Of a DNA stretch of 29,539 bases, positions 15,348 to 26,091 are shown piece by piece. The translations under genes were made by a program, and so were the position numbers. The notes under the pieces are model-generated. The model was not told where the DNA came from. It worked only from the letters and a program-made list of their open reading frames with translations, and ran no database searches. Origin of the DNA: a virus; IMG/VR virus record IMGVR_UViG_3300043099_000157, positions 1-29,539 of that record, one strand, 5' to 3'. How positions within the stretch are numbered: position 1 is the first letter of the stretch; every line of letters begins with the position of its first letter.

Positions 15348-16427
15348 TTACCCAATAACAGGTGCAGTCAAAGCCACAGGAGTGGTCTCAGCAGCAGCCA
15401 AGTCAAGGGGGAAGTTATGAGCATTGCGCTCGTGCATCACTTCAAAGCCAAGGTTGCCTTTGTTGAGAATGTCAGCCCAGGTATTAATAACGTGGCTCTT
15501 ATTGTCAAGAAGTGATTGGTTGAAGTTAAAACCGTTCAGGTTGAATGCCATGGTGCTTACACCAAGAGCAGCAAACCAAATCCCAACCACAGGCCATGCA
15601 GCCAGGAAGAAGTGAAGACTACGGGAGTTATTGAACGAAGCATATTGGAAGATCAAACGTCCAAAGTAGCCATGGGCGGCAACGATGTTATAAGTTTCCT
15701 CTTCTTGTCCAAACTTGTATCCATAGTTTTGAGACACATCTTCAGTGGTTTCCCGTACAAGAGAAGAAGTGACCAATGAACCGTGCATTGCGCTGAACAG
15801 CGAACCACCAAATACACCAGCAACCCCAAGCATGTGGAAGGGGTGCATCAGGATGTTGTGCTCAGCCTGGAACACCAACATGTAGTTAAAGGTACCGCTG
15901 ATACCAAGGGGCATGGCGTCCGAGAAGGAGCCCTGACCGAAGGGGTACACCAGGAACACAGCGGTGGCTGCTGCCACTGGAGCAGAGTAAGCAACAAAGA
16001 TCCAGGGGCGCATCCCTAGTCGATAGCTAAGTTCCCACTCTCGTCCCAGGTAAGCATAGATGCCAATGAGGAAGTGGAACACTGTGAGTTGGAATGGACC
16101 CCCGTTGTAGAGCCATTCATCAAGTGAACTAGCTTCCCAAATTGGGTAGAAGTGAAGTCCGATGGCGTTGCTGCTCGGAACGACGGCTCCCGATATGATG
16201 TTGTTTCCATAAAGAAGACTTCCGGATACAGGCTCACGGATGCCATCAATGTCGACAGGGGGAGCCGCAATAAATGCAAGAATAAAACAGGTGGTCGCTG
16301 CAAGCAGGCAGGGAATCATGAGGACTCCGAACCACCCAACATAAAGACGATTGTCAGTGCTGGTGACCCAGCTACAAAAACGCTCCCAGTTGGACTGAGA
16401 GCGTGGAGCTGCGAGGATAGCAGTCAT
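15348..16427 (-). CDS. psbA: Photosystem II D1 protein
   Basis: 359 residues, full length for picocyanobacterial D1. All key residues are present at canonical numbers: Tyr161 (TyrZ), Asp170, His190, His198, His215, His272, His332, Glu333, His337, Asp342 and the Ala344 processing site. Residue 130 is Glu, the form linked to high-light D1 isoforms in freshwater cyanobacteria. Five membrane helices are readable. Phage D1 replaces host D1, which is rapidly photodamaged and no longer resynthesised after host shut-off, keeping electron flow and ATP available during infection. No intron interrupts the gene. It sits between the RlpA-like gene (8 nt upstream) and the capsid gene, the usual place for host-derived photosynthesis genes in cyanopodoviruses. 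No clear Shine-Dalgarno sequence is seen. Confidence 0.99.
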
Positions 16428-16435
16428 GAATGAAG

Positions 16436-16732
16436 TTAGTTAAGACGGGTTATCTTTACCCTTCCAACTCCAGAGTTAGTGAGACCGATAGCATCAGCCG
16501 CACCTTTACTGAGATCAAGTCCCCTGCCATGGGCATAAGGACCACGATCATTGACCCGAACAACGGCACACCGTTTAAAGCAAGCTTTTAGCTTAGTTCC
16601 AAACGGGAGTGTCTTGTGCGCTGCAGTAAGGCCGTTTTGATTGTACCGTTCACCATTGGCGGTGAGGTTTCCGTGGAAGCCAGGACCGTACCAACTGGTG
16701 ATCACTGACAGAGTAGTTAGGATAGGTAGCAT
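16436..16732 (-). CDS. RlpA-like lytic transglycosylase (double-psi beta-barrel)
   Basis: 98 residues, nearly all one RlpA-type barrel: [20 protein letters not shown] at residues 13-32, [35 protein letters not shown] and a closing [11 protein letters not shown]. The His of TAAH and the Asp of NDRGP, the catalytic pair in characterised RlpA enzymes, are both present, so it is probably an active enzyme cleaving peptidoglycan glycan strands. The N-terminal [12 protein letters not shown] is hydrophobic but short and lacks a charged start, so export is uncertain. No other lysin-like gene is visible in the window, making it a candidate endolysin. It lies 78 nt after the preceding gene and in the same frame, with no other ATG, GTG or TTG between. 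Confidence 0.88.
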
Positions 16733-16810: not shown

Positions 16811-16960
16811 CTACTTTTTCTTCGCTGTCTTAGCAGCTTGCTTAAATTGTTTTGCAGTGGGAGCACCCGCAGTGCCAGGCTTACGCATCTTCTCTCCACT
16901 ACCTTCTTCAATCCGCTTTCGCTTTGCGTGGATGTTCGCGTAGAGACCTTGCTTACTCAT
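16811..16960 (-). CDS. Conserved small basic phage protein (49 aa)
   Basis: MSKQGLYANIHAKRKRIEEG opens the protein, followed by SGEKMRKPGTAGAPTAKQFK and a Lys-rich end. Short proteins beginning with this sequence recur in very many marine and other tailed phages, usually near structural genes; no function is established to my knowledge. It is highly basic, so nucleic acid or capsid-interior binding is conceivable. A longer frame reaches 16996, but the ATG at 16960 overlaps the hli stop as TGATG and gives the conserved N-terminus, so I take that start. Confidence 0.85.
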   Translation of the reverse strand: MSKQGLYANIHAKRKRIEEGSGEKMRKPGTAGAPTAKQFKQAAKTAKKK

Positions 16961-17130
16961 CAGAAGATACCGGGGATGATTTGACCGGTGATGCAATATG
17001 CACCTACAGCTGCTACGAACCCAAGCATGGCAAGGCGACCATTCAGCAGCTCAGCATGTTCATTATGAGATTGATGATAGTTGGGATCCATATACATTGG
17101 CGGCTCTTTGGCCCATAGATTTTCAGTCAT
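16960..17130 (-). CDS. hli: High-light-inducible protein (Hli/Scp)
   Basis: 56 residues. The C-terminal half carries the chlorophyll-binding helix of the family: HAELLNGRLAMLGFVAAVGA, i.e. ExxNGR followed by AMLGF, and the typical ending YCITGQIIPGIF. The N-terminal half is polar (MTENLWAKEPPMYMDPNY). Hli proteins are one-helix thylakoid proteins that bind chlorophyll and carotenoid and protect photosystem II assembly intermediates under stress; phage copies are co-expressed with psbA. Junctions are tight on both sides: TAATG with the scaffold gene and TGATG with the next gene, so it is embedded in the late operon. It is below common ORF length cut-offs and easily missed. Confidence 0.96.
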   Translation of the reverse strand: MTENLWAKEPPMYMDPNYHQSHNEHAELLNGRLAMLGFVAAVGAYCITGQIIPGIF

Positions 17131-22400: not shown

Positions 22401-22790
22401 TTAAACGAGATCAGTAAGTACAGGTGGTTGATAGTTAGGTCCTTTCAAGACCTTGCCGTCTTCACGACGTATAGGTTGACCATCTTCTCCAAGCTTGGTC
22501 ATGTTGCTGCGATGTACACGATTAAGTGCTTCGTCCAAGTCCCACCCAACATTGGCGGCGTACTGGTAGCAGACGTATACAAGATCAGCCAATTCTTTCA
22601 GGCACTCTTCGGAGTTCCTTTTAAAATCAATCAGTAGTTGCTGTTCAGCTTCTAGAAATTCTTTGAACTCTTCAACGATCAAAGTCCTCTGCCCAGTCCG
22701 TGAAGCTGGACTCGTACTGTTGTTGACCTGGAAACTTTTCCGGAACTCCTTTGCTTGGTCGCTGATAAAGGATTTCGTCTTCGAGCTCAT
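22401..22790 (-). CDS. MazG-type nucleoside triphosphate pyrophosphohydrolase
   Basis: 129 residues from the ATG at 22790. The all-alpha NTP-pyrophosphohydrolase metal motif EExxE...ExxD is seen in IVEEFKEFLEAEQQ followed by LKELADLVYVCYQYA, and the helix WDLDEALNRVHRSNMTKL, ending with a GKVLKGPNYQPP segment typical of phage members. Such enzymes hydrolyse (d)NTPs or, it has been proposed for cyanophage MazG, alarmones; the natural substrate here is unknown. It overlaps the DUF3310 gene by 119 nt in another frame and lies 2 nt before the reductase gene, suggesting a nucleotide-metabolism role. A longer frame to 22826 exists but adds no conserved sequence. Confidence 0.88.
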   Translation of the reverse strand: MSSKTKSFISDQAKEFRKSFQVNNSTSPASRTGQRTLIVEEFKEFLEAEQQLLIDFKRNSEECLKELADLVYVCYQYAANVGWDLDEALNRVHRSNMTKLGEDGQPIRREDGKVLKGPNYQPPVLTDLV

Positions 22791-22971
22791 TTTGTAAATA
22801 ATGGATTGCTTTTCGTAAGTCTTCAATGCGGGAGCCTTTGTAACCCGCCCGGCAGATATATTTGATGGCGTTACCCAGGTGGAAGTTCAATCCTTGGTCC
22901 CGAATAAAGTCCCATACTTGTATGGATCCTCGTCGGTAGTAGCTTGGTCCTGTACTGTTGGTAGTGGCCAT
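22672..22971 (-). CDS. DUF3310-family protein
   Basis: 99 residues. Residues ~11-60 match the DUF3310 pattern: YYRRGSIQVWDFIRDQGLNF, HLGNAIKYICRAGYKG and EDLRKAIHYLQNELEDEI. These small proteins are widespread in phages of many bacteria, often among replication and nucleotide genes, and resemble the helical MazG-like fold around the NAIKYI..R segment; biochemical function is not established. It overlaps the NblA-like frame upstream by 85 nt and the MazG gene downstream by 119 nt. Confidence 0.85.
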   Translation of the reverse strand: MATTNSTGPSYYRRGSIQVWDFIRDQGLNFHLGNAIKYICRAGYKGSRIEDLRKAIHYLQNELEDEILYQRPSKGVPEKFPGQQQYESSFTDWAEDFDR

Positions 22972-23180
22972 TTTTTAATTAGGTTAGAGACATTATTGCC
23001 AAGAACAAATGATTGGCGTTGAAGAGCCAAGAAGATTGTGATGATATCTTCTTTTCTTGTGTCTGGATGCTTAAGTGCATCTTCAATCTGCCGTAACTTG
23101 AACTCTTGCTCCATTGTCAGCTTTAGGACTGGAGCTGGCGGTCCAAAGGATGGGCCGTTTAGCGGTGAAATCGTAGTCAT
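22887..23180 (-). CDS. nblA: NblA-like phycobilisome degradation adaptor (candidate)
   Basis: 97 residues from the ATG at 23180 (MTTISPLNGPSFGPP); an internal ATG at 23114 would give 75. The core LKLTMEQEFKLRQIEDALKH followed by EDIITIFLALQRQSFVLGNN and VSNLIKKW has the two-helix pattern of NblA: the L.LEQEF.LR start, a short turn, then FL..L.RQ..V..N....L.K. Cyanobacterial NblA is a ~60-residue protein that binds phycobiliproteins and recruits the ClpC protease to dismantle the light-harvesting antenna; functional phage copies are known. The long acidic C-terminal tail (QDQATTDEDPYKYG) is extra. It overlaps the exonuclease end by 98 nt and DUF3310 by 85 nt. Family call is from remembered patterns, not a search. 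Confidence 0.62.
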   Translation of the reverse strand: MTTISPLNGPSFGPPAPVLKLTMEQEFKLRQIEDALKHPDTRKEDIITIFLALQRQSFVLGNNVSNLIKKWPLPTVQDQATTDEDPYKYGTLFGTKD

Positions 23181-23850
23181 CTGCTTGTAAGATCTTTGCG
23201 AGTCTTGCGTTAGTGAGCGCGACATCTTCCGAAAGATCCTTTCCAGCAAATGCCTGAACGACGGTCTCCCACGTTGCTCCATGTTCATCAAGTAAAGCAG
23301 CTGCTTTTTTGATACCAAGACCAGGTACGCCGGAGTATCCATCGGTTTGATCGCCTGCCATCGTCTGTATGTAGTGCCAGCGTTCTCCATCTTCTTTATT
23401 GATCGTTACTACACCATCTGATAAATCATATAGTTCCCCAGGTATTTGCCTCATGTCTTTGTCAGGTGAGCAGATAATATGGCCTTCCTCTTTGGTCGCG
23501 TAAATACCAATAGCATCATCGGCTTCTAGCTCAGGCATGACAATTACCTGATAATCTTCCTTGAGTTTGTTGATGACCCTTCGGTATCCACACGGCTTCT
23601 TGCGGTTTCTATGTCCTTTATATGTTGGATCAATAGATTTACGGAAATTGATAGAATCAGAAAAGAACAGAATAGAATCGTCAAAGCATCCAAGGTCGTT
23701 TGCAATCTTGTAGAGCTCTCGCTCCACCATCTGATACGCCTCACTGAATTTGCTTGTGACAGTAATTACATCGTCACCCCAGTCAATTTCAGATTCATTG
23801 GCTGCACAGCACTTATAGACAATAAAGTCAGCGTCAATCAACAGGCTCAT
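23083..23850 (-). CDS. 5'-3' exonuclease (T7 gp6-like flap/RNase H family)
   Basis: 255 residues. Acidic metal-binding motifs of the FEN/5' nuclease family are in order: SLLIDADFIVYKCC at the N-terminus, MPELEADDAIGIYA around residues 103-116, CSPDKDMRQIPG, then the helix-hairpin-helix region MAGDQTDGYSGVPGLGIKKA. It would remove RNA primers and degrade host DNA to recycle nucleotides, as gp6 does. The ATG at 23850 overlaps the stop of a 46-codon upstream ORF as ATGA. T7 gp6 homology ends near residue ~228 (DYDFTAKRPILWT); the final ~25 residues are encoded where the NblA-like frame also runs. Confidence 0.95.
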   Translation of the reverse strand: MSLLIDADFIVYKCCAANESEIDWGDDVITVTSKFSEAYQMVERELYKIANDLGCFDDSILFFSDSINFRKSIDPTYKGHRNRKKPCGYRRVINKLKEDYQVIVMPELEADDAIGIYATKEEGHIICSPDKDMRQIPGELYDLSDGVVTINKEDGERWHYIQTMAGDQTDGYSGVPGLGIKKAAALLDEHGATWETVVQAFAGKDLSEDVALTNARLAKILQADDYDFTAKRPILWTASSSPKADNGARVQVTAD

Positions 23851-23987: not shown

Positions 23988-24414
23988 CTACGTTAGTGGA
24001 TAGATAGTTCAAGGCTTTTTGTACACAAGTCGGATCGTCGCCAAAGCATCCAAGGCCTCGATTGCAACGATCACATATGTAGCCTCTAAACCTCTCAGTG
24101 TTGTGGCAGTGATCCAAGATCCATGTAGTGGTGTGCTTGTCACATATCGGACAATTTCCTGGGGGTGGAGTTGGGTTCTGTTTCCTCAACTTATTCCTAA
24201 GTTGGCTCATCTCCTTTCTACACCCCTTACAGGTATTTCTAATACCACCACCTGTTTGAAACACATCAAAGCAGCTCAGAGGTTTTATTTCCTCACACTT
24301 AATGCACTTCTGACCAATTGGATCCTGCTTTTGCTTCTGCTGCGATTGGGACCCTGAGGTTGTAGTACTCTCCAGCAGACTGAGCTGCCCAAAGTAAGCT
24401 GAACTTGAGATCAT
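23953..24414 (-). CDS. Endonuclease VII-type (His-Me finger) nuclease, probable homing endonuclease
   Basis: 153 residues. The N-terminal half has a zinc ribbon (C37-x2-C40 and C62-x2-C65, CIKCEEIKPLSCF ... CKGC). The C-terminal half has the T4 endonuclease VII fold motif: C88-x2-C91, ILDHCHNTERFRGYICDRCN with D101, H102 and H104, then C114-x2-C117-N118, i.e. the zinc site, catalytic Asp-His and the Asn following the last Cys. It should be catalytically competent. Free-standing nucleases of this type behave as homing endonucleases in phages. The ATG at 24414 lies 116 nt inside the polymerase gene, and the recognisable domain starts right at the polymerase stop, as if the cassette was inserted there. 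Endonuclease I is encoded elsewhere, so a resolvase role is less likely. Confidence 0.85.
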   Translation of the reverse strand: MISSSAYFGQLSLLESTTTSGSQSQQKQKQDPIGQKCIKCEEIKPLSCFDVFQTGGGIRNTCKGCRKEMSQLRNKLRKQNPTPPPGNCPICDKHTTTWILDHCHNTERFRGYICDRCNRGLGCFGDDPTCVQKALNYLSTNVDATHKIKDKFS

Positions 24415-25567
24415 TTACATATTCATCTTGCGTTTCAAACTGAAGTTCGTCGTGAATGAACGCCAGCTGATGAGCCTTTATGTCAGCGCGGATAATTGAT
24501 TCATGCGTCAACACCATCCATCTCTTCGCCACCACACCGGCCCCTGACTGCAGCAAATAGTTCAGAGCCTTATGCCCCGAGTCAACGCTGATACGCCTGT
24601 TGTCGATGCTGCGAATAAAACCTCGTTCTGCAGCTTTCTTAGTTGCATTAACAAGCTTCTCAAGACCAGGAATGGCATCCATATAGGCCTGCCGAATCTC
24701 CTTACCTTTCTTTTTTGCCTCGTTCTGGGAAAGGCTTTGGTCGTATGACAACCCAATCTTTTGATCTCCAGCACCGTATAGAAATGCGTAAGTAACTGTT
24801 TTAACTAGACGACGACTGATGCCTATTTTGTCAGCGTTCTCCTGGTGAATGTCACCGTTGAGAAGAACATCTGCGTAGCGGCCTCCATCGTATCGAGCCA
24901 GATAATGGGCAAGCATTCGCAGTTCAATCCCTGCGAGGTCAGCACCAACCATGCACATGTCAGGGCTAGCGCGGAATAGCTTTCTAAAATCAGAGTCACT
25001 TGGTACTTGACCTAGGTTTGGCTTTCGGTGCGCACATCGATGTGTATTGGTTGCAACTGAACAGTGGTGATGAATCCTGTTGTTCTTCACTAACTTCAAC
25101 CAGGCATTGACGCCTTCCGACAACATGCCAAGCATCTTGGTTAATTCCAAGCAGCGGAAGAACTGAAGAGCGATTGGCGTACCAATGTCTTTCAGAACTA
25201 TCTCATCAATAGTTGCCTTACCCTTTTCGGTGAATTGAGTTGGCTTCCATTTGTAGTACCACTCCATCACCCAAGCTATATGATCCCTGGATGTTGGGTT
25301 GAATTCTTTTAGTCGACTAAATGTTGCGCCTTGGACATACCCTGAGGTTTTGTTAGGTCGCTTAGGAGTAAACTCCGATCCTTTGATGAGAGGATGCTTG
25401 TCCCGTAGTAGTTGAGTAAGGCTTTCCAGCTCTTGTCTGAGAGTCGACTCAAGTTTCCATGCAGCAGCCTCATCAAAATACCATCCATGTATCTCCTGTT
25501 CTGTAAGGATTTCAGCAACTCTGTGCTCTAACGCAACCCACTCAGGTAGGGGTGGAAGTGTTTGCAT
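24299..25567 (-). CDS. DNA polymerase (family A, T7 gp5-like), polymerase domain
   Basis: 422 residues from the ATG at 25567 (MQTLPPLPEWVALEHRVAEI). Motif A is VGADLAGIELR (D210), motif B SRRLVKTVTYAFLYGAGD with Lys256 and Tyr260 (equivalent of T7 Tyr526/E. coli Phe762), and motif C FIHDELQFE (H372, D373, E374). The C-terminus NWSEVH matches T7 NWAICH. The 3'-5' exonuclease domain is on the preceding ORF, in another frame. The region between SFTPKR-like residues 60-95 is about 40 residues shorter than the T7 thumb loop that binds thioredoxin. A longer frame to 25633 exists but overlaps conserved exonuclease sequence. Possibly one protein interrupted by a one-base deletion. Confidence 0.93.
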   Translation of the reverse strand: MQTLPPLPEWVALEHRVAEILTEQEIHGWYFDEAAAWKLESTLRQELESLTQLLRDKHPLIKGSEFTPKRPNKTSGYVQGATFSRLKEFNPTSRDHIAWVMEWYYKWKPTQFTEKGKATIDEIVLKDIGTPIALQFFRCLELTKMLGMLSEGVNAWLKLVKNNRIHHHCSVATNTHRCAHRKPNLGQVPSDSDFRKLFRASPDMCMVGADLAGIELRMLAHYLARYDGGRYADVLLNGDIHQENADKIGISRRLVKTVTYAFLYGAGDQKIGLSYDQSLSQNEAKKKGKEIRQAYMDAIPGLEKLVNATKKAAERGFIRSIDNRRISVDSGHKALNYLLQSGAGVVAKRWMVLTHESIIRADIKAHQLAFIHDELQFETQDEYVNDLKFSLLWAAQSAGEYYNLRVPIAAEAKAGSNWSEVH

Positions 25568-26091
25568 AGTTTGTGTGTAACAACAACGTCTTGAACGCAA
25601 TAGTCCTGCATTTCCTGTGACCACTCTTTCCAATCCGTGGTCTTGGCAAAGCTGCCTTTGTACTCACCTAATCTGTATCCGTACGATTCCAATGAGTGAC
25701 GCCCATACAATTGGGCGGGCATGTGCTCCCAGGTTTTCTTCTGATCAACCTTTAGCATGTTGGCGTGGTAGAGCCTTGACAATACTAAAGTGTCAACAAT
25801 TAAACCAGTAGGAGTGAACCAAGGATAGAGTTTGTGAATAACAGGACAATCGTAACCAATAATGTTGTGGCCCACAATGCAGCCAGCGTCCTCAAGACGT
25901 TCAATGCCCCGAATAATCGGCTCTTCTGTTCCTTCGTCGTTGTATACAAGCATTTGATCTGCCTGGAGATCATAGATAGCCAGACAGTGGATGCGGGTAA
26001 CATCATTCAGTAACCCGTCAGTTTCAAGATCGAATACGAGTGTCGGTCCAGCCTCGATAGGTCTTGTCAACGAACTGGGCTTTTGAGACAT
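25528..26091 (-). CDS. DNA polymerase (T7 gp5-like), 3'-5' exonuclease domain on a separate ORF
   Basis: 187 residues. Proofreading exonuclease motifs are complete: ExoI D21-x-E23 (LVFDLETDGLL), ExoII around D81 (GHNIIGYDCPVIHKL), ExoIII with D168 (QEMQDYCVQDVVVTHKL), plus DTLVLSRLYHANMLKVD and LESYGYRLGEYKG as in T7 gp5. The frame ends in PYLSGLR and a stop 40 nt after the next ORF's ATG; the polymerase domain continues in the -1 frame. Homology to T7 gp5 passes without a gap from the HFHP of this ORF to the LPEWVALEH of the next, so the two parts belong to one ancestral gene. Whether they are two proteins or the result of a sequence error cannot be settled here. Confidence 0.93.
   Translation of the reverse strand: MSQKPSSLTRPIEAGPTLVFDLETDGLLNDVTRIHCLAIYDLQADQMLVYNDEGTEEPIIRGIERLEDAGCIVGHNIIGYDCPVIHKLYPWFTPTGLIVDTLVLSRLYHANMLKVDQKKTWEHMPAQLYGRHSLESYGYRLGEYKGSFAKTTDWKEWSQEMQDYCVQDVVVTHKLCKHFHPYLSGLR

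Follow-up and report, generated by a model that had tools for sequence, protein, structure and literature searches.

The short gene at 22887-23180 (minus strand, ATG at 23180) of the viral DNA analysed here is very probably a viral nblA, and its product would be a small proteolysis adaptor through which the host ClpC-ClpP protease dismantles phycobilisomes. The analysed stretch, hereafter the window, is an IMG/VR virus record of 29.5 kb (29,539 nt), which on its sequence is a fragment of a T7-like cyanopodovirus, a virus of ocean-type cyanobacteria. The gene is a further member of the already published cyanopodovirus nblA. According to the account in PMC9602691, the nblA genes predicted by Nadel (2019) came from 14 isolates of cyanopodoviruses, and activity in Synechococcus elongatus PCC 7942 was observed for a marine viral NblA. 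Nadel 2025 (Nature 648:434-442), as cited in PMC12892361 and PMC13386980, deals with viral NblA and with how it affects photosynthesis in the ocean. Going by these secondary accounts, the novelty implied by the initial annotation, which had been drawn up from the sequence alone, cannot be maintained.

The genes of the window follow the T7-like cyanopodovirus order, in a layout shared with P-SSP7: RNA polymerase, SSB, endonuclease, primase/helicase, split DNA polymerase, endonuclease VII, exonuclease and the nblA-like gene are followed by DUF3310, MazG, ribonucleotide reductase, portal, scaffold, hli, psbA, capsid and tail genes. The identity of both neighbours, a T7-type 5'-3' exonuclease upstream (23083-23850, minus strand) and a DUF3310 protein, called nucleotide kinase in many annotations, downstream (22672-22971, minus strand), was confirmed by profile. 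The gene overlaps both of them, as had been noted from the open reading frames: the 98 nt shared with the exonuclease 3' end (23083-23180) code for the N-terminus of NblA together with the greater part of helix 1, and the 85 nt shared with the DUF3310 5' end (22887-22971) for the C-terminal tail. The 97-aa product, MTTISPLNGPSFGPPAPVLKLTMEQEFKLRQIEDALKHPDTRKEDIITIFLALQRQSFVLGNNVSNLIKKWPLPTVQDQATTDEDPYKYGTLFGTKD, contains every motif quoted in the initial annotation, which had also placed the gene exactly. About 6 kb downstream, on the same strand, lie hli (16960-17130; PHROG high light inducible protein, E 5.5e-26) and psbA, encoding photosystem II D1 (15348-16427; TIGR01151, 751.6 bits), and the proposed association of NblA, psbA and hli in one genome is thereby confirmed. 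A gene for a double-psi beta-barrel, lytic-transglycosylase-like protein (16436-16732, minus strand) separates hli and psbA in the window; in P-SSP7 hli directly abuts psbA. The window DNA polymerase occupies two overlapping frames (24299-25633 and 25528-26091, minus strand), representing either a split gene or a programmed frameshift, and is annotated as split also in P-SSP7 and S-TIP37.

The search against PF04485 suggested in the initial annotation did return a match, although the window protein, at 19.9-20.3 bits (E 0.001 against all Pfam, profile positions 1-48 of 50), stays by itself below the curated cut-off of 25 bits. When the whole record was scanned with this profile, the 22887-23180 locus was the only match (E 2.5e-5). 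The NCBIfam NblA model (NF045916) is matched over positions 3-56 of 56 with 18.5 bits, far from its equivalog cut-off of 100 bits, and PHROG 27006, of unknown function, matches with E 2.5e-37. Relatives do pass the PF04485 cut-off: two proteins 87% and 86% identical to that of the window (L001 and L007) score 25.3-25.4 bits, the S-TIP37 copy 27.8-28 bits and locus L052 35.7 bits, matches being found in 25 of the 28 relatives (E up to 1; best 4.4e-7).

Profile and structure prediction delimit an NblA domain at residues 20-69 (22974-23123, minus strand), with helix 1 at residues 23-37 and helix 2 at residues 43-70. AlphaFold2 predicts the core as a helix-loop-helix monomer, whose two helices, at core positions 11-24 and 31-58 (pLDDT 91), correspond to residues about 23-36 and 43-70, in keeping with the two-helix pattern of the initial annotation; the C-terminal tail is predicted to be disordered. 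Foldseek and VIA-align, run on full-length and core monomer models of what would be a small dimerising hairpin, returned weak unrelated helical matches only and no NblA structures. The initial annotation was to be given up if no NblA profile matched or if the predicted structure was not a two-helix hairpin; since profile matches were found and two helices are predicted, it stands on both counts.

Short two-helix proteins might resemble NblA by convergence and have some other role, such as modulating the neighbouring exonuclease, a view favored by the low score of a short domain and by the fixed position beside the exonuclease, but made very improbable by several comparisons. A profile of the relatives, searched against 177,635 distinct PDB sequences, placed the four solved NblA structures at ranks 1-4, the best NblA reaching E 4e-6 with a core-only family profile; host NblAs outscored all 3000 shuffles of themselves, and profile-profile comparison (hhalign) with three host NblAs gave E 1.2e-7 and a probability of 94%. 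The score of L052 connects the family to NblA, and an LTxEQxF motif is common to the family and host NblA. L67, K69 and W71 of the window protein correspond in the alignment to residues L51, K53 and W56 of NblA from Anabaena (1OJH), of which L51 and K53, towards the C-terminal end of helix 2, contact phycobiliproteins; L67 and K69, which occupy these two positions, are putative contact residues. L67 is invariant across the family. K69 varies among relatives, and this lack of conservation of the K53 equivalent counts against the NblA reading, as does the sub-cut-off score of the window protein. The homology claimed at the outset is nonetheless borne out by PF04485, by the PDB ranking and by hhalign.

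Host NblA is represented in these comparisons by PDB sequences only, because a scan of genome contigs with a host NblA fragment gave just two contigs, both labelled Betaproteobacteria. These two MAG contigs (L070 and L071) carry NblA-like matches of 37-53% identity and are possibly misbinned cyanobacterial DNA. An insensitive tblastn search of phages and plasmids with the host fragment gave S-TIP37 and S-SRP01 as its only cyanophage matches, both at the nblA-like locus. The tree of the 60-residue core sets host NblA apart from all podovirus proteins with support 97/95, L052 and L078 coming first among the phage rows, and adds little beyond this host/phage split, most inner branches being unresolved and host branches long. 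At L052 (1547-1925) a short NblA lies between the exonuclease and a Syn5 gp30-like gene, and the slot thus reaches beyond the window's own group. Syn5 gp30 itself, which is 52 aa long and occupies this slot, was evaluated as a possible cryptic NblA and discarded, as it scored -0.3 bits and 1382 of 3000 shuffles scored as high.

The ORF at 22887-23180 is a real gene under purifying selection. About 60 of its 97 codons overlap other genes, and one might suppose an open frame simply forced by the two neighbours; the pattern of substitutions makes this hardly conceivable. In the third which overlaps no gene, the NblA frame has a pN/pS of 0.33, against 1.1 and 2.5 for the remaining frames. Where the gene overlaps the exonuclease, constraint is again stronger on the NblA frame (0.45 versus 1.1), and within the DUF3310 overlap it is stronger on the DUF3310 frame (0.40 versus 0.81 in the NblA frame), these figures being pooled pairwise Nei-Gojobori proportions from related sequences, calculated with no overlap-aware model, reliable in direction and not in exact strength. 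Moreover, in 9515-10a and NATL2A-133, two phages in which the slot is empty, the exonuclease ends at ILWTPVL, while the window exonuclease continues for about 20 residues past that point, through the helix-1 coding region: in its overlap with the nblA-like gene, the exonuclease is a passenger. In the same two phages (L072 and L076, about 1880-1926) the exonuclease directly overlaps DUF3310 by 41 nt and features no extended C-terminal tail of the kind seen in nblA carriers.

The arrangement itself is conserved, the gene lying between exonuclease and DUF3310 in 67 of 70 homologous loci, a count which takes in the window and its duplicate (L053). Two of the remaining three loci show one flank and then the contig end, and the third, S-RIP1, has a broken frame. 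In S-RIP1 (L068:1501-1737) a frameshift between the two helices splits the nblA-like gene, which may be a pseudogene or reflect a sequencing error; the match to the adjoining exonuclease likewise falls into two parts. Within the phage collection, the set of 37 records whose exonucleases are nearest coincides with the set of 37 carrying an nblA-like gene, S-TIP37 and P-SSP7 included.

An acidic C-terminal tail had been singled out as a distinctive feature of the protein. The last 26 residues are indeed mildly acidic, and lie wholly within the DUF3310 overlap. Because constraint there acts on the DUF3310 frame and not on that of NblA, and because tail-less relatives exist, the tail is best read, from sequence comparison, as mostly a by-product of the overlap rather than a new functional part: S-TIP37, S-SBP1 and S-B28 are among the relatives ending 10-13 residues past the helix-2 tryptophan, and L040 and L051 stop at this residue.

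NblA is a homodimeric helix-loop-helix adaptor which bridges ClpC and phycobilisomes and brings in the Clp protease (PMC7966870; PMC7760959), and cyanobacteria expressing viral NblAs lose phycobilin (PMC9602691). By analogy with this biology, from which we infer dimerisation, binding and phage benefit alike, two copies of the core, each of two helices, most likely pair as a four-helix bundle. The dimer would bind phycobiliproteins, mainly via the C-terminal end of helix 2, and would also bind the ClpC chaperone; the host's own ClpC-ClpP protease would then take apart phycobilisomes during infection. Amino acids would be freed for the phage and light capture lowered, the two benefits, amino-acid supply and reduced light absorption, proposed for viral NblA (PMC9602691), while phage D1 and Hli would keep photosystem II working. 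From the position of the gene, it has been suggested that antenna stripping might precede D1 replacement; in the transcriptome of the myovirus P-HM2, psbA and all other auxiliary metabolic genes fall into the middle cluster (PMC5082946).

The copies carried by Prochlorococcus phages bear on the target of the adaptor. The nblA-like gene is present, in the same slot, in P-SSP7, P-SSP3 and NATL1A-7; in Prochlorococcus, chlorophyll-binding antenna proteins replace phycobilisomes, and nblA is missing (PMC7439483). The P-SSP7, P-SSP2 and NATL1A-7 proteins give no significant PF04485 match any more, and pN/pS is 0.09 for P-SSP7, P-SSP2 and one close environmental relative. P-GSP1, a phage of Prochlorococcus MED4, encodes in this slot a 75-aa protein (L073:1880-2104) that lacks a significant Pfam match to NblA and scores 46 bits against the family profile, the best of 3000 shuffles scoring 12. 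The P-GSP1-type branch (L103-L158) is abundant in marine viromes and strongly conserved, comprising 56 virome loci, with the exonuclease adjoining in 56 of 57 loci and a pN/pS of 0.18; by profile comparison it matches the family with E 2.8e-14, and host NblA directly only weakly (E 2.5e-4, probability 43%).

These relatives weigh somewhat against the NblA reading, as the family may have targets besides phycobilisomes. Either Synechococcus is among the hosts of these Prochlorococcus phages as well, or the adaptor acts on a different target in Prochlorococcus. It is possible, though we hold it only tentatively, that the Prochlorococcus-phage branch (P-SSP7/P-SSP2/P-SSP3, NATL1A-7 and P-GSP1-type) redirected the NblA adaptor to a non-phycobilisome target, for which the Pcb antenna, residual phycoerythrin or some other Clp substrate would be candidates. 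For the window gene, the corresponding view, that of an NblA descendant still working as a Clp adaptor but delivering another host protein, or having the phycobilisome as a merely secondary target, draws on the conserved occupation of the slot in phages of such hosts and on their lost PF04485 match. It appears unlikely: the window copy is on the Synechococcus-phage side, its nearest relatives match NblA best, and the phycobilin loss mentioned above was obtained with viral NblAs tested by others (PMC9602691). A viral NblA acting on phycobilisomes is thus the reading we prefer for the window gene, and the Prochlorococcus-phage copies raise a testable question about NblA targets.

As anticipated in the initial annotation, such genes are easily left as hypothetical: most phage records omit the nblA-like gene or call it hypothetical, and those of S-TIP37, S-SBP1, S-CBP3 and DSL-LC07 annotate no gene for it. 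The family profile, combined with the constant position between exonuclease and DUF3310, provides a simple way to find overlooked nblA-like genes. Viral NblA reduces the light captured by infected marine cyanobacteria, and its potential weight is indicated by an estimate, quoted in a 2026 review (PMC12892361), of up to 5% of the photosynthetic light capture of the globe.

Among known systems, the cyanopodovirus NblA of Nadel (2019, 2025; via PMC9602691 and PMC12892361, respectively) belongs to the same phage group, to which the window copy adds a further IMG/VR sequence. With the freshwater cyanophages Ma-LMM01, MaMV-DC and PaV-LD the window shares a phage-borne nblA; freshwater cyanophage nblA is expressed in infection, where phycobilin declines (PMC9602691), but these viruses belong to other phage groups, and their NblAs lie far away in the tree published there (PMC9602691, Fig. 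5). As in host NblA (3CS5 of Synechococcus elongatus, 1OJH of Anabaena, 2Q8V/2QDO of Thermosynechococcus), the aligned core of 50-56 residues is a helix-loop-helix, and a motif of the LSxEQQF type marks the start of helix 1. In contrast to host NblA, which measures 54-65 aa, the window protein has in addition a Gly/Pro-rich N-terminal stretch and the C-terminal tail, and its identity to the host proteins is only about 25-30%.
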